Shown: piece after piece, positions 2,483 through 46,606 of the stretch | Layout of the letters: the number at the start of each line of letters is the position of its first letter | How positions within the stretch are numbered: the first letter of the stretch is position 1 | DNA from: Fragilaria crotonensis | Lineage: Eukaryota > Bacillariophyta > Fragilariophyceae > Fragilariales > Fragilariaceae | Direction of reading: 5' to 3' | NCBI GenBank assembly: GCA_022925895.1 | Contig: JAKSYS010000132.1 | Span: 1-64,000, forward strand | DNA length: 64,000 nt | The notes under the pieces: generated by a model | Seen by the model: the letters and a program-made list of their open reading frames with translations, nothing else | Database searches by the model: none | What the model was told of the DNA's origin: nothing | Position numbers and translations under genes: made by a program

Positions 2483-2960
2483 TTGTAAGCAAACGTCGGA
2501 GCAGGCCCTTGTTTGTACGACAGAGGATGCATGCACCCTCACTTATCTCAGCTTTTGTGATTGGAAGCAACAGCAAAACTCAATTCTATTCAAACAGCGA
2601 CTTCAAGGATGAGATAGAAAACTTGACCTTGTGCTGCATTCTGGTTGCATAATCTCGCTTGGGTAGACGAAATCTGTAACATCAGCAGCCTCCATGCAGT
2701 ACTGAGGAGAGAAACAAGAGCTACGAATCGTGTGTCGATATGCAAACATCGTGAGTTCCGGCGAAAGTACATAGTACCTGGTACTGGTAGTACAAGTACG
2801 AAGTACATACTGTATGCTACCTTTTTCCAGCTTTTAATTGTACTCCGAGTACCTACTACCAGTAGCACAGTGCCTATCGTGCCATCACATGTTCCCGACA
2901 TGTCGCTAGAGAGATTCGCCATGTCGGTCTGGGGGGGGGCCTCACACAGGTATGCATACT

Positions 2961-17636: not shown

Positions 17637-20600
17637 TCATACTTCATAAAAATCATTCTCATCCACTTCTTCATTCCTTGCCGTCGCTTCGTTCAACACT
17701 GAATTGACAAACTTGCAATCAAAGTGAAGGGCACACCGGTGCCCTCTCATATCCTTCGTGAGCCTCTCAATCTCAGAGTAGAGGAGTTCCTGCTGGTTCG
17801 TCCATTCTATCTCATCACGGTCATTCTTGTCAGAATTCTGATTCGCAGCAGCCAGCAGTCGTTCTTTCTGTTGCTCCAAATGATGGTACGTGCAAATGTA
17901 TGCCCTCGCTCTCGCCGCAAATTTTTCCATTCTCACCTTCGTTAACACACTATCAGGGCAGGTGCAGTCTCGTACGAGCTTCTTGAAACTCTCTCGACCT
18001 CGCTTCTGTGATAAAGGAAGACGTCGATAGAAGGCTTTGGAATGTGCCCAACTATATTCAATGCCTTCCCCAGCAAGCTCTGCATGAAACTTCGGTGTGA
18101 GTTTCACTGTCACGCCAAGCTGAGTCCCTAAGAACTCAAGCGCGGTTTCTTCATCCTGAAGTCCTTGCAATTGGCAAGGATGTGGCGAAGTGACGATTGT
18201 AAGTTGACCTCGCCTGTAATTGGATTTTTCTTCCATCAAGAGTATACTTGTCTAATGATGATTCGTCGATGAACCCTCTCCCACAGAACTTGCATCAGGC
18301 CCTTTGGCTGCCCCTGCCACCCTGGTATAACAAGCTCTCTGTCTTCAAAGAGGTCGACACCATTGTTATTTGCAAACTCGATCAGCTCTTTCTTTGTATG
18401 ATTCCGTTGCTGTTGAAGGACAACACCCGCCGCCGCAAGTGCATCAACGAGCATTTTCTTCGAGCGTTCAATGCGTTTCCTCTTCCCTGTTGGTCTATTG
18501 TGCCTCTGTCGTTCCTTCTCCTCCGGGGATAAATACCATGGCCCACTGTCTTCGTCCTTGAAGATCAATGATTGGGTATCGCCAACTTTCAAAACAGGTG
18601 AGTGGGGACCGAGATATCCTGTGTCTGACATTATTGTCGTATCTCTCATCACCGGTTGTGCTCCTCCATAGTTCTTGGACATGTGAAGAGCATTCAGTGC
18701 CCCGTTTCGCTTCCGTGCATGTCCCTGACTGTGATCGAAAAGAAAGATGAACTCGAACTCTGGATACAATACCATAAGACAATCAACGACATCTTCAAAT
18801 TGAAGAGCCATATGATAGCTGTTCCAGAAACCCTCATTATTTGCACCGATGTATAAATACTTAACAAATGGTGATTCGGTGAGGAGTGGTTTGCGATGAG
18901 TCTTGAGGATCTCCTCGGCGGCTTGAGTATCTGTGTAAGTCTTTCCGATTCGTCTCTCGTTGTTTATTCTTGTCAACTCATCTGCCGTCAATCTCCTCCC
19001 AAATCCAAAGTCCCTTGAGACGAACGCCGAGAGCATGTACCCATCCCCTTCTGACTTGGGAAGGAGCGGTCGTTGACCTTTTGGTCCGATCCATGTCTTC
19101 GACCCCAGAAGATACTGAGCAAAAACACTTTCATCCTGACCTATCAGCATGATGGGTTTTGCCTTCGATGACACTCGGATGCTCATTGTTGGCTCTATGA
19201 TTGGGACTGTGCTTCTTCCTGGTGCTGTTTCTTTGAAACGGAAGCGATTCCAGTAGTCAACATGGAACTCGATGTAATCTTTGCCAGCAATGATGTTGTG
19301 ATAGTGGTACCCGAATCCTACGTCGAGATCTTTGATTGCTGCAGCATCCTCCTTTGATATTTGCACCCATCGGTGACAGTAAGGTTCGTACTCTGTGAGA
19401 TATTCTCTGCAAAATGTCTTGCGATTTGCAACAACATCCTCACGTTCGTGCCCATCAACATAGAAGCTCTTCTTTTTCAGGTCGTAGTGGAATCCAAGTA
19501 AGCGCATCCACCTCCATGCGGTTGTTAAACTAAATGATTCAAGTCGATGAGCTTTGAGAAACAAACGGATCCGATCATCGTGATCAGAGAGCTCTTCATT
19601 GGTCGAATCATTTGTGGTGCTGGTTCTCGTTGTTCTTGTCGGCGATGATGAAATTGAAGCTGCAACATCGCTTTTCCATAGAGTAATAAGTCGCGGAATG
19701 ACTTTCGATAGGATGAAATCGTGTACACCTTCTATCGTTAGCTTCGCTAAATTCTTCAGTGCGAATGATACAATCTGATCCTTCGCATCCGGAAAGACCT
19801 CCAAAAGTCTTGGCAAAGGTCGCTTCCCACATTGTATGTAGGGATTTGGGTGAGGAAACCCTTCAAACTGTCGATACGTCATGTTCCATACTGCTACAGT
19901 CTTATAGGACCTAGCCTGGAGCATCCCGAGCTCATTGAGCTCATTACAAGCCTCTTGACAACACTTGTACCATGTCCACTGGTTCATTCGTATAATTGCT
20001 AACTGATAAGCTCTACATAAAAATGTTGCTCTTTGGCGGATTTCGAATATCTCTGCCTTAGTGCAGAAGTTGTCGGCATCCCTTCCAATAACGACATTTC
20101 GCCAGCAGTCTTCACCCTTGTGCACCGATTGTAAGACCCGGATACGACGCTCGACTGCCTCAAGAGGACTTTCATTGCATACTGTGACGCCAGAAACACT
20201 TCCCCCACTTCGTCTCCGAGGGCGAAACAATGCGTGCGCTTCTGGGCTGGCCCAATAGGTTGTTGTCGTAATACTTCTGGTGCTGCTGTCAAGAGGAGCA
20301 TCAGTTCTCTGACGCTTTGACGGTGACGGCGCTTGATCTTCAATACTTTGTCCAGCAGGATCACCGTTGGTGTTTTCTGCCGTCGTCGTGTCTTGTTCCA
20401 CACTTGCGCGAGCAGGAGCTGGTCTCGCTCTTGTAGATGGAATGACAAGCACATTCGCAGCGTATTCGAGCACTTTTTCCTTCCAACCTCGGTCCAGTGG
20501 ACTTGGATAAGTCACCTGCTTCTTCACCTGAGTCAAGTAGTAGTAGTGGCGATGCTGGAAGGTGACTCGGAACATTCCGCTCTCGTTTGATCCGTCAAAC

Positions 20601-20821
20601 CTTGACATGACAGATCCGAAGGAACTTGACCTTGAAAATGCCGCATTAAATTGGCGGACAGTAAAGGTTAGGGAAGCATCAATGTGACCTAATTTTTGCA
20701 GTGCCTCAACCCAAGTTTCAGCTGGAAGCCAACAATTCATTAATCGCGGCGCGTAGATATTGTCGGAACGAATCAATACGACAGCACTGATTACAATGCT
20801 GTAAATTCTTTTGTCAGCCAT
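17637..20821 (-). pseudogene. Degenerate DDE-type transposase (FDHSQGH family)
   Basis: The main frame (20821 to 18236, 861 codons) has the DDE-like motifs LIGQDESVFAQ and FIFLFDHSQGHARKR, linked by a GANNEGFW segment typical of large DDE transposases of fungi and algae. The third conserved block (PKFHAELAGEGIEYSWAHSK) lies downstream in another frame (17637-18239). Three frame changes occur in about 130 bases: near 18275 (GAGAGGGTTC), near 18227 (a five-A run on the coding strand) and near 18155. Reading across them gives uninterrupted family-like sequence. The N-terminal third is polar and low-complexity. I could not find terminal inverted repeats. It could be a dead element or a live one with consensus errors; three breaks favour dead. 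Confidence 0.75.
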
Positions 20822-25956: not shown

Positions 25957-28032
25957 TCAGTGGGCTGCGACGATGCCGTTCGCTTTCTTCACAAACTGCA
26001 ACGGATGTTGAAACTCTTCGACCATCAATTTGCCGAAGTAATTTTGTTCCGTATCGGCGCCATCATGAAACGTATCGATGTCCTCGATAATGACTCGCAG
26101 TCGTTGAGGTTCGTTGCTTGTTGCAGGTACTCGGATATCCAGTACACCTTCCTGTGCAGACATTTGAAGGGAAGTGTCGCCAACAATTGTCATGCGAGTT
26201 ATACCTTTTTGTAGTTGGTAAACATTTGTTTGCAAGGCTTTGAATTGCACGACAAGCGGTGTCGATATCCGATAGATATCGGTATTCTTGCCGTCCAATG
26301 TGATATCAATAACTCCGTCATGAAACCAAACGGTACGCTGCCAAGGACCAACGGTTGTAGCAGTTGGAACCGTCGCGGATGCATTGCATTGTGACGAAGG
26401 ATCTGCGATACCCCCCGAAGTGGCAAGTCGTGTGCCCGCGACACTCTCCACAAACGGATAGACGATGGCTCCTTTCCCATCGAGGCAAACCTTCCTGGCC
26501 AATGCTAGATCCGTCATTTCTTGCCTTTCGCTGTCCCAGCCCCAACCGCGCGTCTTGGCATACACAAACTTACATCCTCTACACACCGAGTGAGTATGCG
26601 TCATATCGTATCTCCGATGGAACTTCTCGGACAAGGGTTTTCCCCGCCACTCGTGATATGATTCGTAAAGAGTTTTGTTGGCAATCACCTGTTGAAGGTA
26701 ATCTCCGAGCGCCTGAGTGGACGTAAAGTCGTGCCACGAAATAATTGAATGCTCTGGGACATGATCTTGAACATTCGGTGCGCCCATGTAGACAGGTAAT
26801 GTGCCACTAGACAAAGCCCCCCACAATTTTTCGGTGATGTAGTCTTCTTCATTCGAGTTCTCAAACGAAAAATGCAAGAGGTACTTGTTCATCATGCTTT
26901 CTTTGTTTGTTTGATCGCTCCCTTCGGGTAGACTAGCTCCGTTATTAAGGCAGCCTCCCAACGAATCGACTCGGATCATCTTCGTCAACTCCGTCACCAC
27001 GCCTTCGCGGTTATTCCTTGATGCACAGTTGTTAGCAATGAAAGAAGCTCCCTTTATTGACGAGTTGTAGTCGACGGCAGGATTTTGAATAGAATACTCG
27101 GCCCACGAAAAGTACGGAAGAGGAACCTCGGACTTGAAGGATGTTGTTGCATAAAACAAATTCTTCCTCCATTGATCAGGACGTATTCTCAAATCGTCAT
27201 AATTCACCGACGACTCCATCGAATGTTGAAACTGAAAATCAGTTCCGCCAACATAGACCGTCTGTTGGGTTCCTGGCGTTCCATATTGCCGGCATGGAAC
27301 TGTACATTCGTAGCTCTCGGGAGAACGTCCAGCCTCGTCCGGCGACCCCATCAACAAATCAATCGGAGTAATCTTGATGACCTTGAGCGAAGGCTCCTCC
27401 TCAAAGATTCGGATCCCCTCGTGACACGCTTCCTTGACATCAAGAAAAGCTCTTGGCTTAATGACATGTCCACAATAGTATCGAGAGTGATGCCAGGAGT
27501 TGAATGCGCGAATCGTATGGCCTTTCTTGAGATCACACACATCCATTTGTAGCAAGCAAGGTGTATAATCGGCTCCGGCGAGAGACATTAGTTCCTTAGT
27601 GGATGAATCGCCGTATGACAATGCCACAAGCCTTTCATATACGGTAGGTATAGGTTGCTGTTGGTTTGAGCTGTCCTTCTCGTTGGTTCGCAGTGGAGAC
27701 AATGATTTGCTCGTCTGCGGTATTCGCTCCCTGTTATCATTCCGGGTTTTAGGTGTCGGTTTAGAGCTCGCGTCCTCGTTGACTCGCGGTGGTGACAATG
27801 ATTTGTTCAGACGTGATCTTCCCTTTCGGCTCTCCTTCAAGTTTTTGGCCATGGCGCCTTCATCATTTTCTGGAACCAGCCGCACGTGAGACGAGGTGAC
27901 GACGCCATAGGATATTCGTATGCACAGTCCACAAATCAATCCCGCTAGAACTATGAAACATGTTCGGACATTGACAGTCACTTTGCTTCGCTTCGACGGG
28001 CTGCGTAAGGCCCGAATAGGAGAATTCACCAT
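25957..28032 (-). CDS. Family GT10 alpha-1,3-fucosyltransferase with extra N- and C-terminal domains
   Basis: 691 residues from ATG 28032. There is a type II membrane anchor (about 22-46), a low-complexity stem with a duplicated block (KSLSPPRVNEDASS at 77-90 and KSLSPLRTNEKDSS at 109-122), and an N-terminal accessory domain (about 130-215, TIRAFNSWHHSRYYCG). The GT10 core spans about 240-490, with the diagnostic FSFENSNEEDYITEKLWGAL at 388-407 and GTLPVYMGAPNVQDHVP behind it, the GDP-fucose-binding block of the family. A C-terminal domain of about 175 residues (515-691, GPWQRTVWFHDGVIDITLDG) is unknown to me. Expected role: Golgi fucosylation of N-glycans or other glycans. The flanking domains recur without the core in the gene at 29446-30855. 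Confidence 0.88.
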   Translation of the reverse strand: MVNSPIRALRSPSKRSKVTVNVRTCFIVLAGLICGLCIRISYGVVTSSHVRLVPENDEGAMAKNLKESRKGRSRLNKSLSPPRVNEDASSKPTPKTRNDNRERIPQTSKSLSPLRTNEKDSSNQQQPIPTVYERLVALSYGDSSTKELMSLAGADYTPCLLQMDVCDLKKGHTIRAFNSWHHSRYYCGHVIKPRAFLDVKEACHEGIRIFEEEPSLKVIKITPIDLLMGSPDEAGRSPESYECTVPCRQYGTPGTQQTVYVGGTDFQFQHSMESSVNYDDLRIRPDQWRKNLFYATTSFKSEVPLPYFSWAEYSIQNPAVDYNSSIKGASFIANNCASRNNREGVVTELTKMIRVDSLGGCLNNGASLPEGSDQTNKESMMNKYLLHFSFENSNEEDYITEKLWGALSSGTLPVYMGAPNVQDHVPEHSIISWHDFTSTQALGDYLQQVIANKTLYESYHEWRGKPLSEKFHRRYDMTHTHSVCRGCKFVYAKTRGWGWDSERQEMTDLALARKVCLDGKGAIVYPFVESVAGTRLATSGGIADPSSQCNASATVPTATTVGPWQRTVWFHDGVIDITLDGKNTDIYRISTPLVVQFKALQTNVYQLQKGITRMTIVGDTSLQMSAQEGVLDIRVPATSNEPQRLRVIIEDIDTFHDGADTEQNYFGKLMVEEFQHPLQFVKKANGIVAAH

Positions 28033-28392
28033 TCACACCGAGATGTCTGGAACCAAAACAATCAGTCCATCTGGAGTAAAGCTTGTGACATTGAGTGCGG
28101 GGATGGAGGCGTCTTACAAACGACTTGGATGAGAAAAATCGTGTTCACGTTTGAAGATACCGCACCCCGTACTGTAGCTGGTACTACCGTAGTACTGTTG
28201 TTTAGTAAAAGATGCTACAGTACTGACAGCTGACAGTAAAAAGAACTGCTACACCGTGCGCGTTGGAGTAAAACGTACGACTACGGTAGTGCACTACTGT
28301 TATGAGTGATAGACGTGATACGTGATACAAGTACGGCATACGGCATACCGCTCCATTCTAATCGTCGACAACCACAAACAACGATAGTTTCA
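28033..28392. other. Divergent spacer, GTAC-rich
   Basis: Between the start codons of two divergent genes. 28160-28340 is rich in GTAC-type palindromes (GTAGCTGGTACTACCGTAGTAC). Confidence 0.5.
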
Positions 28393-29082
28393 ATGAAGTC
28401 CCTATCGTTCACGCTACTTCTTCTAGCATGCGATTCGCTATGGGTTGGGGGTTTATCATTTATGATTGCTCCCCATCAACAAAAGTACCTTCATCACCAA
28501 CATGTGCGGCACCAACTCCGCTTCAAAAGCCCATCAACGGGAGATCTTCGTGCATCGAAGCATGAATCCGATGAGACTATGGATCCATTTGATATGAGTC
28601 AACTTCAGAGTCGAATCGAACAGCAACAGAATCGATATCGTGATTTTATCTTGTCTGCGGACGAAATGGAACATCGACCCGAAAACGTGCATATCATCGT
28701 CTTCAATCCTGAAACGGACGAACAGGGCGTCCACACGATTGAGTTCCCGCAAGGATCGGGTCTCAATATCATTCTCGCCTTTGAATCTCATATTGACTGT
28801 GAGACCTTCGCAACCATGCTGAAACATGAGGGGAGCCGACACTTTCAAAATGCCGTGTCGGCGGAGGCACCTCTGGACGAACTGGAAGAATTCTGCGACT
28901 CGGCGAACATGCTAGTCAAGGTCGTGCCTCGCGGGAAGGACCTTCGTCCTCCATCCGATAATGTGGAAGAATTATCCTTTGATCCAACGTTGACAAACAA
29001 TCGTGGAAAATCACGCGCCGAGTTCGAGGAAGAGGATGATGACGGCGACGACGCGGCACAATTCATGGAGAGTTGGCAGTAA
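28393..29082 (+). CDS. DUF3110-domain protein, plastid-targeted
   Basis: 229 residues from ATG 28393. The frame is open upstream, but this ATG starts a clear signal peptide (MKSLSFTLLLLACDSLWVGG) followed by LSFMIAP, matching the diatom plastid junction. The mature part has a DUF3110 domain at about residues 93-187: VHIIVFNPETDEQGVHTIEF, LAFESHIDCETFATML and a final VPRGKDLRPP. This domain is known from cyanobacteria and plastids and has no defined activity. The C-terminus is acidic (FEEEDDDGDD). It sits on the opposite strand among the fucosyltransferase-related genes and is unlikely to be functionally tied to them. Confidence 0.8.
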   Translation: MKSLSFTLLLLACDSLWVGGLSFMIAPHQQKYLHHQHVRHQLRFKSPSTGDLRASKHESDETMDPFDMSQLQSRIEQQQNRYRDFILSADEMEHRPENVHIIVFNPETDEQGVHTIEFPQGSGLNIILAFESHIDCETFATMLKHEGSRHFQNAVSAEAPLDELEEFCDSANMLVKVVPRGKDLRPPSDNVEELSFDPTLTNNRGKSRAEFEEEDDDGDDAAQFMESWQ

Positions 29083-29445
29083 ATATTTGATGCCTCTTTT
29101 TTGATACAGCGCAGCCGTATTCTCGATGTGGACGTGTTATGAAGTCAGCAAGATCCCCTTTCAATCCGGATTGTGGGGCACAATCGAAAACCAATAAATC
29201 GTTGGAAAGATAGCATAATGGTCCACACAAGGCACTTGGCTTCCGCTTCCTACTCTCGATTGGGAAGGTACTTGGGCAGCGAAATCGCCATGAAAGATGA
29301 TATCGTCGAATTGCCAACCCGTCTAACTGCGAAGCCAAGTTTAGTAAGCAAGCGGGTTCTAAATAGCTGTTGCGAAGTCACTGTCCGGGATGCGTTTGCT
29401 GATTTTGTGAATGGAATCAGTTCTGAGTTAGGGAGGCACAAAGCT
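29083..29445. other. Spacer between convergent genes
   Basis: About 360 bases between convergent stop codons. No supported feature. Confidence 0.4.
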
Positions 29446-30855
29446 CTACGTGCGTGTCTTCACTACTCGAAAGAATTGCACCGGAGACATGAACTCACTT
29501 AGCATCGTCTCAGTGTGATTCTGGTCCTCACGCTTGTGCTTCTTCCAGGATTCCTTTATCACCCGTATGCGCTTCGGCTCATGACTAATTTGAGATGTTT
29601 GCATTTGAAGCACTCCGGGGGATGGGTTGGATACCGAGATACGCGGGTCCACAATAACGACGACTTGAGATGCGTTGCCTTGGAACGCATACACATGATC
29701 ACGAAGCATTGTGGAGTGTACATGCATTCGAATTTCGATTTGGTACGTGTCAGGAGAACGACCTTCCAACGTGATATCCACCACACCATCGTGGTGCCAT
29801 ACGGTGCGCTGCCATGATCCCAAAGTCTTGACGAGAGGCACCTTGAATTTGTCTCGGCACGTTGACTTGCCTGCTGCGACTGTATAGTTCTGTCCTGATG
29901 GATTTTTCTCGATAATGGTCTCCACAAAGGGGTAGTCTACCTGTCGGTTATGGGGGTCCAAACACATTTTTGTGATTCCCGTGCCTAGTTGCTCATTCAC
30001 ATAAACACGAGTGTTTTCATGGCACGGCTTGACAATCTCGATCGAAGTCTGTGCCTTGATTAGCTCTCCACATAGGTAAAGGTCTTGTTCCCAAGGATTG
30101 AACGCTCGGATGATGTCATTGACAGTATCGCAATCAGAAACTCTGCACAGAGCATATCTATTAGCTGGATCTTGCTCTTCAACAAGAGCTATCATTTTTG
30201 CAACGTCTTGCGCGCTGTACATGGGCGTTAGCAGTTGCGTAAAGACCTTCTCCTTGCGATGGTCCAATCTTTTGGTCAGGATTTCCGACATCAAAGCTTT
30301 CGACTCGTGCATCTCCGGTGCTTTCGGTTCCAATGATTGAGCCTGACCGCCGATGTCAGTAACTTTAGGTGCCTCCACCAGAATACCGGTAGCTCCTTCA
30401 CTTTGAGCAGGATGTTGCTGGCGCGATGGAGGTTGGTGCTCAGGTATGGGTGGGTTCGCCGCAAAGAGTGCCTTGATGACTTTCGCCTTTCGATGCCCCC
30501 CACCTTTCTTCGCTCTTGTCACTTCCGCATTATTTCCTTGTTGATTCACATCACTCGGAGGTGCGATTGTGACAGGTACCAACATCTGTGCCATCTGTTG
30601 CGCCCTTTCTTGCATAGCCCGCGACACAACGAGCGGTTTCGGATGCTCTCGTTTGAATCCATGTAGTGGAAACACCCGTTGGTGAGGGTTAACGTTTTGC
30701 CCCTGTTGTTGACTGCTATACGCAGACATGGCCACAAGTTGGACGATGAACACACATGCGGCGGCACCCAGGGTAAGGAAGGCTCCCAGTCTGCATTTAG
30801 GCTTCGACCCACCCCTTTGGAAAAGCTTCAATCGATTATTGCCAATTGCTACCAT
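29446..30855 (-). CDS. Core-less paralogue of the GT10 protein
   Basis: 469 residues from ATG 30855. The frame is open upstream, but this ATG gives a standard type II anchor at about 23-43 (LGAFLTLGAAACVFIVQLVA). A long low-complexity stem follows. Residues about 205-290 match the N-terminal accessory domain of the GT10 gene at 25957-28032: compare NDIIRAFNPWEQDLYLCGEL with TIRAFNSWHHSRYYCGHV, and the following KPCHENTRVY with EACHEGIRIF. Residues about 295-469 match its C-terminal domain (GSWQRTVWHHDGVVDITLEG). The roughly 300-residue catalytic core, including FENSNEEDYITEK, is absent and the two flanks are directly joined in frame. It is probably a Golgi-type membrane protein without transferase activity. 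It may be a regulator or glycan-binding form, or a gene on the way out. Confidence 0.75.
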   Translation of the reverse strand: MVAIGNNRLKLFQRGGSKPKCRLGAFLTLGAAACVFIVQLVAMSAYSSQQQGQNVNPHQRVFPLHGFKREHPKPLVVSRAMQERAQQMAQMLVPVTIAPPSDVNQQGNNAEVTRAKKGGGHRKAKVIKALFAANPPIPEHQPPSRQQHPAQSEGATGILVEAPKVTDIGGQAQSLEPKAPEMHESKALMSEILTKRLDHRKEKVFTQLLTPMYSAQDVAKMIALVEEQDPANRYALCRVSDCDTVNDIIRAFNPWEQDLYLCGELIKAQTSIEIVKPCHENTRVYVNEQLGTGITKMCLDPHNRQVDYPFVETIIEKNPSGQNYTVAAGKSTCRDKFKVPLVKTLGSWQRTVWHHDGVVDITLEGRSPDTYQIEIRMHVHSTMLRDHVYAFQGNASQVVVIVDPRISVSNPSPGVLQMQTSQISHEPKRIRVIKESWKKHKREDQNHTETMLSEFMSPVQFFRVVKTRT

Positions 30856-31461
30856 GATGATTCTCGATGATTGCCAAGGATGGTTACAACCTGAATGCAA
30901 TCCCGAAAATGTACTTCGCCTCTGGACTTTGGAGTTTGTTTGCGTTGGTGGCAAAATATGTATCCGAAACACCGACATCCGTGTATGCATAGTGGAGTGG
31001 ACAACAAAGAAAACACAATTTTTAGTCACGCATGCATCTCTGTGCGACACTTCAAAAACGAAAACATTTATGCTTCGAAGCTTCGAAGTACGACATTCAA
31101 GCGTCATCATGACCGCGGAAGGATTCCACGTTCCATTGGCGAAAGGTACTGGAGTACTGTATGCTGCGAGGTTCGAGAAGTTCCCGTAACAGTGTATTCT
31201 GGTCTGCTGTTGCGGGAGCTGGGACAATTGAAGGATAGCAATGATCAACTCTAAGTATCAAGGTGCCAGTTGAAACCTTGAAAATAACCACCTAAGTTGG
31301 GTTCGTTGATGGCTTGAACATGCAGACAATATGCCACTGAAGGAGAGCCTTTAGTGTATCTATTGTACGGACCATGGCAGTTGGTACGACAGTTCTTGTT
31401 TTCCAAGTTTGTATGATGGGTATGAATACCTTGAGCAGGATGTCTCAACATATTAATACTC
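30856..31461. other. Spacer
   Basis: About 600 bases. Open frames overlapping it lack motifs. There is no sign that the core missing from the neighbouring gene is preserved here. Confidence 0.45.
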
Positions 31462-32172
31462 TTACGACGTCTGTATCTGCACGAGCGCGCTGTTCGTCCC
31501 TGCTTGTTGCGACTCTTCTCGCTCATCAGGAACATAGTTTTGATCACTGGGATGCACTTGATTTATTATTTGCCCGTTACTGGTATCCAGCGGCGTCATA
31601 ACCTTATGGAAGTCTTCAATGAGGGGAATGACCGATCCTTCCTGAACTCGGAGAGTCTTGGAAGGGTAGTCGCTTTGACTCAGTACTTTATTAGCGATCG
31701 ATCCCGATCCCATTTGCTCTATTGTATCTTTTGATGTCGACTTTGTGATGCCAGGCTGCGACGTAGTGCTGTCTACGTGCTGTTCGTTAAGTTTTGTGGC
31801 ACCCACTTGGGGCTTCGGTTCACTTCTTAATTTGTGAAAAAGAGTCTTCAGCGTTTTTTCTTGCAAAGCTTGGGCATTCGAGACACCCTTAGTCGCGTGC
31901 CGGACTAATGCTTCAGTTGGACGCTGTACCACTTTTGTTGGGGAGTTGTGGTGGTCGATTGGGCGATGACAGAACAATCTCGACATTGCCATGAGCGCCA
32001 CGGTGCAAACCAATACAACCAAAACAACTTCTCGGAGAACTTGAAATCTGGATTTCCCTTCTCGAAATGGATTTGAGGGAGGTGTTAGGTAAGTTCGATA
32101 CCTCACGACGTGCGAAAAGGATCTGTGTCTGTTTGAACTGATGCTGGCAAGGAGATTGTCTTTGGCGAGCAT
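31462..32172 (-). CDS. Type II membrane stem protein, possible truncated relative of the GT10 cluster
   Basis: 236 residues from ATG 32172. There is a hydrophobic anchor (about 48-67: VVLVVLVCTVALMAMSRLF) and then a Ser/Thr/Gln-rich stem with no recognised domain. A short segment (FHKVMTPLDTSNGQIINQ) resembles the stretch preceding the N-terminal accessory domain of the neighbour (EKVFTQLLTPMYSAQDVAKM). I infer from that and the same orientation that it is a remnant third copy lacking the accessory and catalytic domains. The similarity is weak and by eye. It could be an unrelated hypothetical protein. Confidence 0.45.
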   Translation of the reverse strand: MLAKDNLLASISSNRHRSFSHVVRYRTYLTPPSNPFREGKSRFQVLREVVLVVLVCTVALMAMSRLFCHRPIDHHNSPTKVVQRPTEALVRHATKGVSNAQALQEKTLKTLFHKLRSEPKPQVGATKLNEQHVDSTTSQPGITKSTSKDTIEQMGSGSIANKVLSQSDYPSKTLRVQEGSVIPLIEDFHKVMTPLDTSNGQIINQVHPSDQNYVPDEREESQQAGTNSALVQIQTS

Positions 32173-36099: not shown

Positions 36100-38995
36100 A
36101 TGCCAACCAAGAAAAGGAGCCAACGACCATCAAAGTACAAAGCAAAGCCTCCAAGACATTTGCAAGATGCTTTGAAGCTCAATCTGAATCACATTGTCAG
36201 GGAGCTGGAAGCTGCAAAAGTAAACAATGATGGAAAGATACCGTACGGTGCTATTACTTCCATGGTTCGCAAAATGACACATTTGCTTCCATGGTTGACA
36301 AAGGATATGATCCAACATCAACTAAGAAAACGGAATGGAATGATGAATGATCTAGTAGATGGTGATGATGACTACAATAATGGTGGCAGTGGACAACATG
36401 GCACCAGTTTGCCTGGTTCCAGCATGAGCAATACCGATGGAGGCACACTGTCAACACTGACACATGACACCGCTGCCGACAATACCGAGGACAACATGAC
36501 GGAACCTCCTCAGGCACAAAACTATAAGCCGCTAGATCACCACATCACCACCACGCTACCACTAGGGCTTGTCCACCACCATGCAAGAGACAACGAGGAA
36601 GAAGAAGAAAATAGTGAGTTCATGCTTGTGGAAGGAGAAAAGACGACAGCAGGTGAAAAAAACAGCAATGACGCAGCTTCAACACCCACCTGTAGAGATT
36701 TGGTTGGGAGAGTGATGGTTGTCGAACGTTCCCACACCAATGAAGAGAGTACTAGTAACTCATTTGGACGCCCAAGAGGAACGACCATGATGTACTCGCG
36801 AGACTTGAAAGAGCAGGTGAGACTTGCGACAAAAGAGGCGGCAACGAAGTACAGAGATGTGAGAGAGAAGGCAAAGCTCGCAAACTCAAGAGCGAAGAGA
36901 GGGAGCCTCGCCGATATTGTTGCCGCTGCAAAGCACAAGTACGGAATCATCGATGCCAACATCTGCATTCATACAGTTCGCACGCGAGCCAGCAGTAAAA
37001 CAAGCTGAACCCTGACGTGTGCCAAGGAACTCCGTCTCCGATGCTCAGCATTGAGCCATATCTTGTCGCCCTCATCACACAACTTTCATGGATGCGTTTG
37101 CCAATAACTGTCGCAGCTGGTCTGCAGCTTGCAAATTCTCTCATTGTTGGGACCATATTCAAATCAAAACTCAGAGCATGGAAAGAGAAACATAATGTCC
37201 ATACTCGCCGCATGTTGAATATCGACAACTGTGCAAGCACCCTTCTTCTCGGATGGGGATACTGGAGAGGGTTCATGAATCGGCATGGTCATCTGATTAA
37301 GAGCAAGAAGGCCGTGAAATTCGAATCGAAACGAGCTGATTGGTGTACGCACCACAACTTCTCAATCATGTACAGAGAAGTTTACGAGGAAATGGTGAAA
37401 GGCGGGATCGCAACAAAGCAAACTGATGAAATCTTTTTGAACCGCGATGGTGAACCAACCAATGAGAACGCTGCCAGTGGTCTTCCAACATCATACATGA
37501 TGCAGCATCCTGATAAGCTAATCTTCGTTGACGAGGTCGGCTCTAACACATCCACCACTAAAGATGGAAACGTGGGGGTTGAGAAATACCTTTGTGAGGC
37601 AGGTGCACGACCACAAGTGAGAGCGGCAACAAGAGACTCATACTTTACCGTGTTGGGGTTCACAGCTGCAACGGGTGTTCCATTAATGTGTGCAATTATA
37701 TTCTCCGCAAAAGAATTGGATGAGAATTGGGTGCTTGGATTCGATGCAAGCGCGCCATGGATTGGAGAAGATACCGACAGGATAGGGAATAGTGGTGGAC
37801 TTGGGAAACCTTTTCCTATGGGACCGGTGTGCAACTCGAATGGCATCGAAGTTCCAACATTCTGCTGTGCCTCTGAGAGCGGAAGCATCACGGGCGACTT
37901 ACTTGTTAAGATGCTCGCGGCAATTGACAAGCTCGGTGTTTTTAATCGTTCTGATGGTGTACCTCCATTTCTTCTGCTCAATGGCCATGGAAGTCGATTC
38001 GATCTGACGTTCTTACAATACATAAACAGGGACAAGACAAAATGGAATGTGTGCATTGGAGTACCTTACGGTACCAGTTACTGGCAGGTTGGGGATTCCA
38101 CCGAACAGAATGGCTGTTTCAAGATGGTACTTACCAAGCACAAAAGGAATCTCTTGACACGGTAGGAACAATGTCGGTTAGAATTTGCGATCGAAAAGCG
38201 CGATGTGGTTTACCTTGTGCATCAAGCTTGGCTTGATTCCTTCGCTCGTGTTCAACCGAATAAAAAGGCAATTGCTGAAAGAGGCTGGAATCCGCTGACA
38301 TACAATTGTCTGCTGCATCCAGAAATACTTGCAGCAAAGTACAACGGTGTTGCATCAAACACCAGAACAAGTGAGCAACAATCACAAGAAAGTTCACAAG
38401 AGTCCCCGATTTCTGCAGATATCATTCTTCCGAACTCAACAAGCATCGCCAGCGAATTGAACTTGTCACAAGGCATGGCAGGTATGTTGATCGATGAAAT
38501 TGTGGAGATGAGGATGAGAGATGATGCTCGCAACGGTGTGAACCTTGAAGATACTCGTCGCAAGCAAATTCAGACGGCACTTGATGCCATTCAGAAGGGT
38601 AAGCGAATAACAGCCGGTAATCTTGTGGCCTCTGGATCGCACGCGTGAGTGGCCCTGATGTGCTGAAGAATATGACTGAAAGAGAAATGAGAAAAGAAGA
38701 AAAGGAGTGTGAGAAAGTGCATAAGAAGATCCGAGAGTTCAAGGCTTTGCAAAGGAAGGTTCTGGATATCCGAGCACTCAACAAAACACATGATCAAATG
38801 ACTGTCTCAGAGTTGCGAACCATGATTTCATGGTACAAGCGTCTCACTGATGCGTCCGCACCAACGACACGCCAAGCTTTACTTACCAGATTGCCAGAGA
38901 TATGTGATCGTGATGAGCCGAAAGAGCCCATCCCTTGCTTTGCTCGACCAGAAAGGCAAGAAGCGAGAGCAATGGAGATGTCAGAGTTGCTGTGA
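36100..38995 (+). pseudogene. Transposase of the TIR element (DDE-type), three breaks
   Basis: Starts MPTKKRSQRPSKYK at ATG 36100. Frame 1 runs to 37008; the coding sequence moves to another frame at about 37003 (LNPDVCQGTPSPM). An in-frame TAG interrupts at 38163-38165. The same frame resumes (EFAIEKRDVVYLVHQAW) to 38648, and a second shift at about 38643 leads to SGPDVLKNMTERE and the final stop at 38995. Motifs: GYWRGFMNRHGH (DNA-binding-side block), FVDEVGSNTS, LLLNGHGSRFDLTFLQYIN, VCIGVPYGTSYWQVGDS. The GHGSR block is the DDE second site; I expect Asp before GHG in this family, whereas this copy has Asn. With three breaks and this change, the encoded enzyme is very probably inactive. Confidence 0.82.
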
Positions 38996-40045: not shown

Positions 40046-41056
40046 GATTAACAGTCCCGCATTGCTTGTCTTTAACCCGAGAAAGCAAGCGATTTGGTCC
40101 ATTTGAAGGCCTCAAGTGGATTTGTTGAGTTGTGAAAATCGTCGTTTGTCGAATCGACGTTTAGAAGTGCTAAGTAGCACCTGCCGTCCCTGTCGTTTTG
40201 CGAAGGTTCGAGGCATTCGTGTGATCTGCATTGAAGCAGATCAGTGTGACCGTCATTGAGACGAATATCGACGCTTTGTTTAGCGGAAAAAGGACCATTG
40301 TCGCTGGCCCTTCATCGAACGAGTTCGGAAAGCCAGTTGAAACGGGGTTGTTCTGATTCCAACTGGTACTGACGTTCCTGTGTTCTGACGTACGAGTCGT
40401 ATACTTCCTAAGTAACGAGGAAGATTTGGTCCGAAGTTCCGAAGATTCGGGAAGAAGATTCTTCGGAGATTCGCAATTTGTCACGATTCCCTAAGTAATT
40501 TGGAAGATTCGAGATTCAGATTCGTTGAAGATTCTGAGAGTCACCGAGATCCGGAGAGAGAACAAGAATCTTCTGCAACTTCAAGGTCTGTCGGTCAGCC
40601 GGTTTTCCAGATCGAATCTAAGGTCTGTCCTGTGTCCAAAGTTTTCGACGTCTGTCTGTCCAACGTCATTTGAGTCGAGTCGGATCGGAAGTCAACGTCC
40701 GTCCGTCATCCCATTTTGAGTCGAGTCGGATCGGAAGTCAACGTCCGTCCGTCATCCCATTTTGAGTCGAGTCGGATCAGAACACTAACCGTCCGTCTGT
40801 CATCCGATTTTTTGGTTACTGAACTTGTTAGTTTTGTGAGTTCGCAATCCGGTGTATTCCGTGGCATTGAGACGCCAAGCTCCTTTCCTTCAGAAACTTA
40901 TCACAGTCACCTGCGAGAGGTTCTCAACACAGTTGAGTGAATCGAACCACGTGTCTAACTGTGTAGGTCCTGCTTGATTGGTGGTTGGTGGTTTGTCCGT
41001 CTGTCATCCGTTTTTTGCGAGCTGCATCCCTGACCGGTCTAGCTACCCTTGTTAAG
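40046..41056 (+). other. Retrotransposon leader (5' untranslated region)
   Basis: About 1 kb between the 5' LTR and the polyprotein ATG, with tandem 46-bp repeats near its 3' half. No primer-binding site complementary to initiator tRNA-Met (TGGTATCAGAGC-like) follows the LTR. The sequence there is GATTAACAGTCCCGC, so another tRNA or an internal tRNA fragment may prime. Confidence 0.75.
40672..40810 (+). repeat. 46-bp tandem repeat in the leader
   Basis: Two exact 46-bp units (40672-40717, 40718-40763), each starting GAGTCGAGTCGGATCGGAAG, plus a diverged third unit. Shorter echoes of GTCCGTC(C/T)GTCATCC recur at about 40792 and 40997, up to the edge of the coding region. Confidence 0.93.
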
Positions 41057-44000
41057 ATGGTTTCAACCAGACAAACTGTTGAACCAACTCCCTTTGTTCA
41101 TTTGATGAACAATGTGTTGACCTCTGCCATGTATGCAACTGCATTTGAGGCATGGGGTGTGACTTCGGTCACTGATATCCTGTCCCTGACCAAGGAAGAT
41201 ATTGAGTCTGAGTTCCCTGGTGCTGATGGAGCAACAACCAGGCTCCGTTTGATGGATCGTAAGAAGGTCCTTGAAGTCCAAGATTGGTTCCATGAGGAGT
41301 GTGAAGATCCTTCTGCAGATGTGTGGTTTGGTTTGACTGCGGAGGTCCTTGAGGAATTCCGTGCTGCTCGTACCGCGATGACGACTTCAAAGAGCATTCC
41401 AAATTTGACTTCAGGCAATGTTGCACCTGACCCTGCACCACCAGCTGCCTCTGTTGACCGTGCTGCACCTGATTTGGCTTATGAGTTTGCCAAGGCTACG
41501 AAGAGGAGCTTCTCTGATCTGAAGCAGTTCAAAGATGCGCATCAGTGGACTTGGTGGCATCGCCATTTGATTTCAACGTCGCGTGCCCAAGGAATTGGGA
41601 ATGTCTATGATGTCAACTTTGAGCCAACAACTGATGCTGAGAAGAAATTGTTCAAGCTCCAGAATGAGTTTGCCTTCAGTTGCTTGGAGCAGGCCCTCCA
41701 TACTGCTGATGGGAAGTTGTTTATCCGTGAGTTTCAAGAGTCTGGAAATGCTCGCGGTGTGTATCAGCGTTTGGTTGCAACCTACAACACTGGTGAAGCT
41801 GGTCGTTTGAAGGCTGAGAAGATTGAGACTGAGTTGCAAGATATGAGACTTGATGTGAGGCAGTGGAAGAAAGGCTGCCAAGCTTTCTTGACGGCATGGG
41901 AGCACAAGATTCGCGACCTTGCTGAGTTGGATCCTGAGGCTGTGACCGAGTCCAAGAAGTGGCGTTGGCTCCGTCAAGCCGTGTTGCCTCACAAGACCAT
42001 GGAGGCTGCAATCACCAACTTTGATTCCTTGGATAAGTTTGCCCGCAAGATGACTCCTGATGGTGATGGATTGGGTTTTCAGGAGATGTTCAATCAGTTG
42101 ATGGATGCTGCAACTCGACATGACAAGATTACGAAGGATAATGTTGCCAACCAACAACGTCGTGTCCAGGAAGGCAAGTTCCAAACTGTCACCAACAAGA
42201 AAGGCATTAAGGGTTCCAGTGATGGGAAGAAGGCCGATCCTGCTGTTGTTTGGAAGTATTATTCGCCTCAAGATTGGGAGAAGTTGTCTGTTGAGAAGAG
42301 GAAGCAGATTCTTGAGCAGCGCAAGGTTACTCCGCGACCACCACGTTCCCAACGTGCTAATTCTGCTTCAACCACCACCACGCAATCCTCGTCAATGGAG
42401 GCTCCAGCAAGTGCTGCTCCGATTCCTGCCACTGTGATTGCCAACCAAGCCCAAGTTGATGCTCAGTCAGTTGTGTCCTCCAGTTCTGCGCCATCTGTTT
42501 CTGGATCTGCTGTCCCTGGATCTACTATCCGTTCCATGCTTTCCAATGCTGCACACTCGCGCCGTGACGATGACAGTGTCATGGTTCAGGAAGGGAAGGT
42601 TTACCTCCGCGTCAAGATGGCAAATGTTAAGTATCGTTTCCGTGCCCACTCTGCTGCTCGAACTGCTTGTACTGGTTCTCTCATTGATGGGGGAGCCAAT
42701 GGTGGTTTGTGTGGATCTGATGTTTTGATTCTGTCGGAAACTGGCCAACGCTGCGATGTCACCGGTATCACCAACAATGCTGTGACCGATTTGCCGATTG
42801 TCCAAGCTGCTGGTCTGATTCAAAGCTCCATTGGTCCGATTATTGGTATCTTCAACCAATATGCATCCATTGGTGATGGAAAGTCTGTGCATTCCTGTGC
42901 GCAACTTCGAAGTTTTGGCACTTTGATTGATGATGTCCCTATTGCTTGTGGTGGAACTCAGCAACTTGTGACCCCTGAAGGTTACATTGTTCCCTTGTCC
43001 ATTCGTGATGGATTGGCTTACATGGATATGAGTTCCCCTTCTGCTGATGATCTTGACCGCTACCCTCATGTGATTTTCACCTCGGACGCTGCTTGGGATC
43101 CTTCGCTCCTTGACCATGAACACGCTTTGGTTCCGGATGTCTATCATGTTGACTACACCCATGGTTTTCAGGATCACCGAGTCAATGATTTTGGGGAGGT
43201 TATCTTTGATCATCAAGCCCGTGTTGAGTATTGTTCTGTGCATGCCCATGAAGCTTCTGTGCATCGCCATGACCCTCACTATGAAGCCATGAGACCCTAT
43301 CTTGGATGGGTCAACCTTGAGCGTGTGAAGAAGACTTTTGAGAATACGACGCAATGGTTTCGTGCTTCTGTTCGCTTGCCGTTTCGCCATCACTTCAAGA
43401 GTCGTTTTCCTGCTGCAAATGTTCCTCGCCTGCATGAAACTGTTGCAACAGATACTTTCTTCTCGGATGTTCCCGCTCATGATGACGGCGTTCTCGGTCA
43501 TGGAGGCGCTACGATGGTCCAAGTCTACTGCGGCAAGGACAGCCAGCTTACTCGTGGCTATCCGATGACTTCAGAACATGACATGTACCATACCCTTGAA
43601 GATTTCATTCGCCAAGAAGGTGCCCCTGATGCTCTGCTCAGTGACAATGCCAAGGCTCAGATTGGGAAGAATGTCCAACAGATTTTGCGGATGTACCGCA
43701 TTGCTGACTTCCAGTGTGAGCCTCACTACCAACATCAGAACTATGCTGAGCGCCGGATTCAAGAGATCAAGAAGACTGTCAATGCTTTGTTGGATCGCAC
43801 CGGTACTCCTGCTGCTTACTGGCTTCTTGCCATGCTCTATGTGATCAATTTGATGAATCATCTTGCTGTTGCTTCCTTGGATTGGAAAACTCCCTTGGAA
43901 GTTGCTCATGGACAGAAGCCTGATATCTCACCATTCTTGCAATTTCGTTGGTGGGAACCTGTGTATTATGAGGCTCCGGCGACGAGTGGTTTTCCGTCTG

Positions 44001-46606
44001 AAAGTGTTGAGAAGACTGGCCGCTGGGTTGGTATTGCTGAACACCAAGGTGATGTGCTGACTTACTTGGTGCTCACAGACGACACTCTTCAGGTTATTGC
44101 TCGCTCCAATGTTCGCTCTGCCCTTTCGCCAACGCACCCCAACTTTCGTGCCTATGCTCCCTCGCCTTCCGATGGAGGGGAGGATTTGATTCCGTTGAAT
44201 GTCGATCCAGGTGATTCTCCGCGTCAGCATGTCAAAGATATCATCTACAATTCGAGCGACCTTGCTGGTGTTAACGTTGATCCATCGGAACTCAAGCTCC
44301 CATACTTCACGCCTGACGAACTTTTGAATCGCACATTTCTTCACGAAGTTGACGGTCAACGCATGCGCGCCCGAGTCGTTCGGAAGATTATGGATAACGA
44401 TGCGCACAATCATCAAAATATCAAGTTTTTGCTCGAGATTGGTGCTGGTGAACATGACGAAATTATTGCTTACAATGAACTTTCGGATTTGGTTGAGCGA
44501 CAGGTCAATGAGGAGCGAAGCACTGATGATGTGTCTCCTTGGGTCTATGATGACATTATTGCGCACCAAGGTCCTTTGAAGCCAACTGATCCATTTTACA
44601 AAGGCTCTTCCTACAATGTTCTTGTTCGCTGGATGAATGGTGAAGAAACCTATGAACCCTTGTATGAAATGATCAAAGACGATCCGATTTCGGTTGCCAA
44701 GTATGCCAAGGAACAAGGATTGCTTGATACTCCAGGTTGGAAGAAGCTTCAGAAGTTTGCGCGTCGGATCAAGAAATTTCTGCGCATGGTCAAGCAAGCA
44801 AAGCTCCAGCGCGGGTCTCGTGGAATTCGTTTTAAGTTTGGAGTTCAGGTCCCTCGCAATTGGAAGGAAGCCATGGAACTGGATGAGAAAAACAAGTCAA
44901 CTTTGTGGCGTGACGCAATCAAGAAGGAGATGGACCAGATTGCGGAGTATGGAACTTTCCGCGATCTTGGAAGGGGAGCAACCGCTCCAGCTGGCTACAA
45001 GAAAATCACTGTCCGCCTTGTCTTCGATGTCAAGCATGATCTCCGTCACAAGGCGCGTCTTGTTGCAGGTGGCCATCTTACTGATCCGCCGAAGGACTCT
45101 GTCTATTCAGGTGTTGTTTCTTTGCGAAGCCTTCGTCTTGTTGCACTGTTTGCTGAATTGAATGGCTTACAGCTTTGGGCTGCCGATGTTGGAAATGCCT
45201 ACCTTGAAGCTTTGACAAAGGAAAAGGTTTATGTTATTGCTGGTCCAGAGTTTGGGGAGCTGGAGGGTCATATCCTCCTGATCCATAAGGCTTTGTATGG
45301 TCTTCGTACTTCTGGTGCCAGGTGGCATGAACATTTTGCCGACACACTTCGTGATCTTGGATTCACGCCCTGCAAGGCTGATCCTGATGTTTGGATGAAG
45401 AATTGTGGATCACATTATGAGTATATTTGCGTTTATGTTGATGATCTTGCGATTGCCATGAGAAACCCTCAAGAATTCATCGATGTTTTGGTCAATGATT
45501 GTGGTTACAAGCTTAAGGGTGTTGGTCCAATGGAGTATCATCTCGGAGCGGATATCTACCGTGATAATGATGGCACTCTCTGCTTTGGAGCCAAGTCCTA
45601 CATTTCTCGTATGCTTCGTACCTACGAATCGATCTTTGGGGAGCAACCAAAGGAATACTCTTCCCCCCTTGATCGCAATGACCACCCAGAGTTGGATACC
45701 TCCGATGAGTTGCCTGAGTCCGATATTAAGCGTTTTCAGTCACTGATTGGCGCACTCCAGTGGGCTATCAGCCTTTGTCGTTTCGATATTCAATGTGCTG
45801 TGATGACCCTTGGACGTTTTCGTGCTGCGCCGCGCATCGGACATATGCTGCGTGTCCAACGCATTTGTGGCTATCTTCGCAAGAAGCCTGATGCTGCCGT
45901 TCGTTTCCGTATTGGTATTCCTGATACGACGATCCATGTTGAACCTCCTCGTCAGAATTGGGAGTACGTCTACGGTGATTTGTCTGAAGAACTTCCGTTT
46001 GATATGCCTGTCCCACTTGGGAAACCTGTTCGGATTTCCACGTTTGAAGATGCGAATTTGTTGCATGACCACGTCACTGGACGTTCTGCAATGGGTATTT
46101 TACACTTTGTGAATCAGACTCCGGTGGAATGGTTTTCTAAGCGACAGAATACTGTGGAAACTGCTACGTATGGTTCTGAATTTGTTGTTGCTCGGACGGC
46201 AACTGAACAGATTATTGATATTCGTTACACGATTCGCATGCTTGGTGTGCCTTTGGATGGTCCTGCTTGGATGTTTGGTGACAATGAGAGTGTTGTTAAG
46301 TCTGCTACGATCCCGCATTCTTCTCTCATGAAGCATCACAATGCTTTGGCATACCACCGTGTCCGCGAAGCGATTGCTGCAAAGATCTTGCATTTCTGCC
46401 ATATCCCTGGTAATCAGAATCCTGCTGATGTTCTTACCAAGTTCTTGCCTTGGGCCACGTCCTGGCCATTGATTGAGCCCATTCTGTTTTGGAAAGGGGA
46501 GACCGATAAGTCTGCATCTGATGATGATCCTCAGACATTCTCCTTGAGTATCGCGTCCATCACAGAGGGGAGTGACAAAACCCTACTTGACTACTGGTAT
46601 GGTTGA
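41057..46606 (+). CDS. Copia-type Gag-Pol polyprotein
   Basis: 1849 residues from ATG 41057 (context AAGATGG). The frame is open 24 codons further upstream, but that part has no ATG and lies in leader repeat. N-terminal Gag region (about 1-500) without a CCHC zinc knuckle that I can find. Aspartic protease DGGANG at D544. Integrase core D799, D863, E898 (D and E separated by 34 residues by my count). I do not see the usual HHCC finger in front. Reverse transcriptase with YVDDLAIA at Y1460. RNase H residues D1665, E1708 and D1742. The product would make virus-like particles, copy the RNA and integrate the cDNA. The last 11 codons and the stop lie inside the 3' LTR. The gene is uninterrupted. 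Confidence 0.96.
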   Translation: MVSTRQTVEPTPFVHLMNNVLTSAMYATAFEAWGVTSVTDILSLTKEDIESEFPGADGATTRLRLMDRKKVLEVQDWFHEECEDPSADVWFGLTAEVLEEFRAARTAMTTSKSIPNLTSGNVAPDPAPPAASVDRAAPDLAYEFAKATKRSFSDLKQFKDAHQWTWWHRHLISTSRAQGIGNVYDVNFEPTTDAEKKLFKLQNEFAFSCLEQALHTADGKLFIREFQESGNARGVYQRLVATYNTGEAGRLKAEKIETELQDMRLDVRQWKKGCQAFLTAWEHKIRDLAELDPEAVTESKKWRWLRQAVLPHKTMEAAITNFDSLDKFARKMTPDGDGLGFQEMFNQLMDAATRHDKITKDNVANQQRRVQEGKFQTVTNKKGIKGSSDGKKADPAVVWKYYSPQDWEKLSVEKRKQILEQRKVTPRPPRSQRANSASTTTTQSSSMEAPASAAPIPATVIANQAQVDAQSVVSSSSAPSVSGSAVPGSTIRSMLSNAAHSRRDDDSVMVQEGKVYLRVKMANVKYRFRAHSAARTACTGSLIDGGANGGLCGSDVLILSETGQRCDVTGITNNAVTDLPIVQAAGLIQSSIGPIIGIFNQYASIGDGKSVHSCAQLRSFGTLIDDVPIACGGTQQLVTPEGYIVPLSIRDGLAYMDMSSPSADDLDRYPHVIFTSDAAWDPSLLDHEHALVPDVYHVDYTHGFQDHRVNDFGEVIFDHQARVEYCSVHAHEASVHRHDPHYEAMRPYLGWVNLERVKKTFENTTQWFRASVRLPFRHHFKSRFPAANVPRLHETVATDTFFSDVPAHDDGVLGHGGATMVQVYCGKDSQLTRGYPMTSEHDMYHTLEDFIRQEGAPDALLSDNAKAQIGKNVQQILRMYRIADFQCEPHYQHQNYAERRIQEIKKTVNALLDRTGTPAAYWLLAMLYVINLMNHLAVASLDWKTPLEVAHGQKPDISPFLQFRWWEPVYYEAPATSGFPSESVEKTGRWVGIAEHQGDVLTYLVLTDDTLQVIARSNVRSALSPTHPNFRAYAPSPSDGGEDLIPLNVDPGDSPRQHVKDIIYNSSDLAGVNVDPSELKLPYFTPDELLNRTFLHEVDGQRMRARVVRKIMDNDAHNHQNIKFLLEIGAGEHDEIIAYNELSDLVERQVNEERSTDDVSPWVYDDIIAHQGPLKPTDPFYKGSSYNVLVRWMNGEETYEPLYEMIKDDPISVAKYAKEQGLLDTPGWKKLQKFARRIKKFLRMVKQAKLQRGSRGIRFKFGVQVPRNWKEAMELDEKNKSTLWRDAIKKEMDQIAEYGTFRDLGRGATAPAGYKKITVRLVFDVKHDLRHKARLVAGGHLTDPPKDSVYSGVVSLRSLRLVALFAELNGLQLWAADVGNAYLEALTKEKVYVIAGPEFGELEGHILLIHKALYGLRTSGARWHEHFADTLRDLGFTPCKADPDVWMKNCGSHYEYICVYVDDLAIAMRNPQEFIDVLVNDCGYKLKGVGPMEYHLGADIYRDNDGTLCFGAKSYISRMLRTYESIFGEQPKEYSSPLDRNDHPELDTSDELPESDIKRFQSLIGALQWAISLCRFDIQCAVMTLGRFRAAPRIGHMLRVQRICGYLRKKPDAAVRFRIGIPDTTIHVEPPRQNWEYVYGDLSEELPFDMPVPLGKPVRISTFEDANLLHDHVTGRSAMGILHFVNQTPVEWFSKRQNTVETATYGSEFVVARTATEQIIDIRYTIRMLGVPLDGPAWMFGDNESVVKSATIPHSSLMKHHNALAYHRVREAIAAKILHFCHIPGNQNPADVLTKFLPWATSWPLIEPILFWKGETDKSASDDDPQTFSLSIASITEGSDKTLLDYWYG
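46564..46572 (+). other. Polypurine tract
   Basis: AGAGGGGAG immediately upstream of the 3' LTR; the position and composition fit plus-strand priming. It overlaps the polyprotein coding sequence. Confidence 0.85.

Follow-up and report, generated by a model that had tools for sequence, protein, structure and literature searches.

What use could a cell have for a fucosyltransferase gene from which the catalytic part is missing? The question is raised by a pair of genes, here called A and B, in the window under study, a stretch of 64,000 nucleotides from the diatom Fragilaria crotonensis (assembly GCA_022925895.1, contig JAKSYS010000132.1, positions 1 to 64,000 of the forward strand), which is part of a contig of 110,000 bases (contig 40) in a searched genome of 62.1 Mb and 881 contigs. 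Gene A encodes a GT10 fucosyltransferase whose core lies between an N-terminal and a C-terminal domain (N-module and C-module), and gene B is shown by sequence comparison to be an open gene for an anchored protein that consists of the two flanking modules of a plant-type GT10 protein, the catalytic core being absent. Known pseudo-glycosyltransferases usually keep a dead catalytic fold. A natural paralogue without the whole core and with both flanking modules isolates the role of these modules, so that an unnamed domain can be tested directly. Little is understood of fucosylation in diatoms, a matter of relevance to algal glycans and to the use of diatoms as protein factories. The best-supported functional statement that can be made is that the comparisons suggest a use of the modules apart from fucosyl transfer.

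Two modules joined without a core

The assignment of A is given by a match to PF00852 over residues 329-493 (127.1 bits, cut-off 23.9) and by the alignment of its residues 267-495 with PDB 9s6a, Glycoprotein 3-alpha-L-fucosyltransferase A, at E 1.1e-33. By these matches A is a GT10 fucosyltransferase with a plant-type core, for which fucosyl transfer from GDP-fucose is predicted. Its domains follow in the order anchor, stem, N-module, GT10 core and C-module (Table 1). The resemblance to the plant core alpha1,3-fucosyltransferase is confined to the core; the N- and C-modules of A are unmatched in 9s6a by sequence, and B differs further from the plant enzyme in having no core.

Both modules of A recur in B. 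In BLASTP the C-modules (A 514-682, B 296-463) are 35% identical at E 1.2e-27 and the N-modules (A 131-213, B 204-288) 28% identical at E 5.1e-9, and against 300 shuffles each the C-module pair scores 256 (shuffle mean 29, z 44) and the N-module pair 105 (shuffle mean 23, z 18). About 300 residues of A, comprising the core, have no counterpart in B: residues 214-513 of A score 37 against the whole of B, where shuffled sequences average 34 (z 0.6), and no PF00852 match is found in B up to E 10. The sole Pfam signal in B lies in the stem and is sub-threshold (U1snRNP70_N, E 0.16, 13 bits against a cut-off of 23). In B the anchor is followed by a stem longer than that of A and then by the two modules, directly joined, with the frame unbroken through their junction. 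Past the tail and anchor B contains only the six module cysteines (four plus two) and none of the six core cysteines, so that the core is absent without an odd module cysteine being left over. The idea that the N-module and the C-module form an internal repeat was dismissed, their comparison giving z 1.3 in A and -0.6 in B.

The paralogy of the two genes and the in-frame joining of the modules in B with the core missing had been proposed in an initial annotation made from the DNA letters and their translations, and both are borne out by these comparisons. The same annotation called B the neighbouring gene, which is right in that the two lie close together and wrong as to immediate adjacency, a DUF3110 gene that is not part of the pair being placed between them on the opposite strand. 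It also allowed that the core might be present as a spliced exon; at the DNA level none was found near B, and the only PF00852 match on the contig, among 12 genome-wide, is that of A. An artefact, in which the core was overlooked as an exon or went missing through misassembly, is extremely improbable: nothing was found in its favour, the frame runs on through the junction, no unclaimed PF00852 match lies near B, and B differs from A throughout, which the collapse of two copies would not yield.

Each protein has a single N-terminal anchor preceded by a positive side (net charge +4 over the 15 residues before the anchor in A; Table 1 for B), as judged from hydropathy and charges rather than by a dedicated topology program, and by this pattern A and B are type-II membrane proteins and predicted Golgi residents. 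The start of B is taken as the ATG at 30855, which puts the anchor at the N-terminus as in A; the frame extends upstream of this ATG, to 600 amino acids from a TTG at 31248. Directly upstream of B lies another frame, of 236 amino acids (31462-32172, minus strand), with an N-terminal membrane anchor and a stem-like remainder; it has no Pfam match at E 10 and its best relative in the genome is no better than E 0.137.

As to whether B is a gene, a run of 469 open codons has a chance of about 1.7e-11 at the local base composition, and synonymous codon choice is above random by 3.3 standard deviations in B and 5.2 in A. The codon evidence, taken alone, is weak; homology at 35% with the cysteines kept is the stronger argument.

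Loss of the core and constraint on the modules

The C-module was found in at least five genes of the genome, namely A, B and three others designated C22, C241 and C681, the queries being whole A and B and the C-modules of A, C241, C22 and C681. Both modules are present in the four core-bearing genes as in B, and the core sits at the same place in A, C22 (which has one predicted intron of 77 bases), C241 and C681. Each of the five members has four N-module cysteines and two C-module cysteines. Three of the former and one of the latter occupy invariant alignment columns, and the remaining ones are shifted in some members. PF00852 is matched above its cut-off by C241 (89.5 bits) and C681 (54.1 bits). 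Family searches, whose yield is a lower bound, found no C-module in the GT10 genes on contigs C228, C97, C676, C596 and C496. In four GT10 copies on C596 and C496 (L019, L020, L022, L023) the match is interrupted by a stop or distributed over more than one frame; these copies may be broken or allelic relatives of the C97/C676 gene. Pattern scans, which reach close relatives only, picked out 2, 2, 42 and 39 stretches in a collection of viral contigs and 93 in one of genome contigs, and by tblastn none of them encodes a relative.

A profile of four family members, in which the C681 row begins after its TAG and the C22 row is a predicted splice, matches the plant enzyme 9s6a at E 6.6e-43; the aligned part starts immediately ahead of the first pair of core cysteines and ends at the CxxC, with both modules outside. 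A match of the plant enzyme reaching into the C-module was sought by sequence and not found, the match ending at the core. In the Helicobacter pylori enzyme FucT, Tyr246, Glu249 and Lys250 contact GDP-fucose according to a figure legend (PMC11468063). The register of these donor residues was set through the YxTEK motif of solved enzymes. All three are kept in A (Y398, E401, K402) and in C22 (Y359, E362, K363), and all three are lost in C241 (H/P/A) and C681 (F/G/V). A MES motif, the Glu of which we take to be the catalytic base, is common to A, C22 and the plant enzyme and is replaced by MND in C241 and RRD in C681. Core cysteines number six each in A, C22 and C241 and nine in C681. A count of GT10 genes by the Pfam domain alone would miss B and include C241 and C681 as enzymes.

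The degree to which core and modules are conserved differs between these two pairs. From A to C22 the core is identical at 139 of 253 positions (55%) and the C-module at 48 of 167 (29%; Fisher p 1.5e-7), whereas from C241 to C681 the figures are 80 of 251 (32%) and 73 of 200 (36%; p 0.32). Compared between the pairs, the cores differ (p 1.8e-7) and the C-modules do not (p 0.12); N-module identity is 12/63 for A and C22 and 30/65 for C241 and C681. With the C-module as yardstick, the core of C241 and C681 would have lost its extra constraint and the modules would not. From this pairwise conservation it follows that the flanking modules seem to be held by selection independently of catalysis. 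The contrast sets one pair against one pair, and it would be weakened if C681 itself is decaying. The retention of both modules in C241 and C681 in spite of the lost donor residues also lends indirect support to the proposal, made in the initial annotation, that the C-module works alone.

Regarding the order of events, A and B are sisters with support of 99/98 in a tree of both modules and 96/96 in a tree of the C-module. In the module trees a grouping of B with C22 is rejected (p 0.016 and 0.034), as is one of A with C22 (p 0.014 and 0.034), tests for which the tool warns of long branches and of groups named after the tree was seen. Since A and B are sisters and the other members bear a core, its loss in B is the simplest reading and is favoured over a gain by the others. 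The reverse, in which a protein of the two modules came first and acquired the GT10 core between them afterwards, with B as the older form, is quite unlikely. The module trees have no outgroup, so a root on the long branch of B is possible for the C-module tree, and in the core tree a clade of A and C22 is neither supported nor rejected (approximately unbiased test, p 0.217); parsimony, with A and B as sisters and a core at one place in the four other genes, argues against it. In the core tree the plant sequence falls outside a clade of the four diatom cores, whose support of 85/93 is under the support mark of the tool; diatom and plant cores together are separated at 100/100 from two further GT10 genes that the genome contains.

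Fold of the C-module and possible roles of B

The C-module could not be named in the initial annotation, and a name was sought in databases without success: Pfam returned no family for any of the five members up to E 10, five NCBIfam families were each matched by one member of the five (best E 0.012) and are taken as chance, and no PDB sequence was better than E 0.46. AlphaFold2 models were built from window sequences only, with three rows each, cut from the two proteins. That of the lumenal part of B has a mean predicted local distance difference test score (pLDDT) of 42.7, with the best blocks, in the second half of the C-module, at 62-72, and presents nine consecutive strands and then a helix; that of A is poorer (mean 33.9). 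At this low confidence the C-module is predicted to be beta-rich in both models, and a beta-sandwich is plausible.

In Foldseek, 41 of the 50 matches listed for the B model (of 894) and 36 of the 50 listed for the A model (of 369) are carbohydrate-active enzymes or binding domains, counted by title, including polysaccharide lyases, Golgi mannosidase II and GH29 fucosidases. The best among the matches listed are a glycosaminoglycan lyase for B (E 0.007) and, by name, a GH29 enzyme for A (E 0.096). Neither model has a match at E 0.001 or better in PDB and BFVD, and the carbohydrate theme does not appear in the latter, a library of viral structures. The description of the C-module as glycan-related in the initial annotation is hinted at by these titles, which come from poor models, and sugar binding by the module is a guess. 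Such binding is the substance of one account of B, namely a stand-alone lectin-like protein whose modules bind a glycan, as a cargo receptor or a cell-wall or glycoprotein binder, with no fucosyltransferase partner. The beta-rich C-module of both models and the predominance of carbohydrate-active titles would fit it, whereas the low pLDDT means, the lack of any match at the E 0.001 level, the repetition of few proteins among many of the Foldseek matches and the need to assume, for want of aligned ranges, that it is a beta-sandwich part that matches tell against it; it is judged somewhat unlikely.

The account tentatively preferred, with a probability a little short of even, is that B is a core-loss product kept as a non-catalytic Golgi partner or recruiter of an active fucosyltransferase. 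B would have arisen from an A-like copy through loss of the core and would have been retained since its lumenal modules function independently of catalysis. Within the Golgi lumen both modules may dock onto the acceptor of the fucosyltransferase or onto a paralogue that has the core, for example A. B would then serve the active enzyme as a non-catalytic subunit, recruiting, retaining or tuning it. Among mechanisms this non-catalytic partner is ranked first and the stand-alone lectin next, both of which we infer by analogy.

The analogies are drawn from passages of the cited sources, mainly open-access ones, among which no description of the C-module or of a core-less GT10 paralogue was met. 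One is GAUT7, which recruits GAUT1 and holds it in the Golgi (PMC11820401); like B as proposed it is a homologous type-II Golgi protein that retains a partner enzyme, although it is described with a catalytic domain and B has none. Golgi anchors engineered in plants, namely cytoplasmic, transmembrane and stem (CTS) regions that lack a functional catalytic domain, associate with native plant enzymes in non-productive complexes (PMC12711721); they resemble B as anchors without an enzyme, and differ in that they are artificial whereas B is natural and has two further modules. Human FUT10 and FUT11 (POFUT3/4) are, like A, GT10 enzymes extended at the C-terminus, and contact with the substrate is predicted for the extension (PMC11949838). 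The extension is alpha-helical by description, in contrast to the diatom C-module with its low-confidence beta-rich prediction. The number of GT10 genes per diatom averages about three (PMC11468063), and Phaeodactylum tricornutum has two long GT10 proteins, PtFucT2 and PtFucT3, with consecutive gene numbers (46109, 46110) and lengths given as 798 or 770 and 707 or 718 amino acids (PMC6536626, PMC9826595). As described, rather than by sequence, they are similar to A in length and in having one GT10 domain, and length alone suggests that they share its architecture.

Several observations weigh against the preferred account of B as a non-catalytic partner. Fusions of PtFucT2 and PtFucT3, which may or may not share the C-module, to green fluorescent protein gave plastid-like, not Golgi, fluorescence (PMC9826595). 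The fold of the modules is not established by two poor models. B lies on the longest branch of the five genes, which makes its placement uncertain, and its own-frame codon score (0.007) is below those of three of the five other frames (one sense, 0.017; two antisense, 0.058 and 0.017), whereas the own frame of A is the best of A. The long branch, the weak codon signal and the in-frame stop of the related C681 would also suit a B that is a decaying copy without function; this is very unlikely in view of 469 codons that stay open after divergence to about 35% identity and of the module cysteines kept.

A broader and more speculative idea, judged unlikely, is that the N- and C-modules together make up a single lumenal domain, autonomous and so far undescribed, which may be a reader of glycans and has the GT10 core as its passenger. 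Catalysis would then have been switched off twice, by donor-site decay in C241 and C681 and by removal of the core in B, and the reader kept, giving rise to non-catalytic receptors or regulators derived from fucosyltransferases.

Feature coordinates and other observations

Table 1. Positions of genes A and B, their domains, the gene between them and two core-bearing relatives. Positions refer to the window, except for C241 and C681, which are given by locus.
Feature	Position	Strand	Details
Gene A, GT10 fucosyltransferase	25957..28032	-	691 amino acids, single open frame; PF00852 E 8e-37; PDB 9s6a E 1.1e-33
A, N-terminal membrane anchor	27898..27954	-	residues 27-45; Kyte-Doolittle 2.16 over 19 residues
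A, N-module	27382..27582	-	about residues 151-217; four Cys (159, 166, 187, 203)
A, plant-type GT10 core	26551..27312	-	about residues 241-494; Y398, E401, K402; CxxC 484-487
A, C-module	25960..26493	-	residues 514-691; unnamed; two Cys (516, 549)
DUF3110 gene, not part of the A/B pair	28306..29082	+	between A and B; DUF3110 E 1.3e-19; first ATG of frame 28396
Gene B, core-less paralogue	29446..30855	-	469 amino acids, single open frame
B, N-terminal membrane anchor	30727..30783	-	residues 25-43; net charge +5 over 15 residues preceding
B, N-module	29980..30183	-	about residues 225-292; four Cys (237, 242, 262, 278)
B, C-module	29449..29973	-	residues 295-469; two Cys (298, 333); predicted beta-rich at low confidence
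C241, GT10 paralogue	L002 1483-3819	-	open frame of 778 amino acids; without donor-site residues
C681	L005 913-3204	+	one in-frame TAG; three more core Cys than the others; without donor-site residues

Elsewhere in the window, a frame of 485 amino acids at 1085-2542 (minus strand) matches DUF6625 at E 1e-14 and has, by eye, a hydrophobic stretch near its N-terminus, and one of 830 amino acids at 59791-62283 (plus strand) comprises a pectinacetylesterase-like part (E 7e-17) followed by a membrane part of many helices that is rhomboid-like by eye. Mobile elements may be represented by a frame of 1873 amino acids at 40985-46606 (plus strand), which by eye is like a Ty1/copia-type retrotransposon polyprotein, and by two frames that are, by eye, transposase-like and have no Pfam match at E 0.001 (18236-20821, minus strand; 37017-38165, plus strand). 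In the genome at large the silicon-transporter family has 19 matches, 18 of them over the cut-off and the best at E 4e-193, in keeping with a diatom origin, and at G000:C97:29749-33762 (L041) three successive silicon-transporter matches lie in one open frame of 1456 amino acids.

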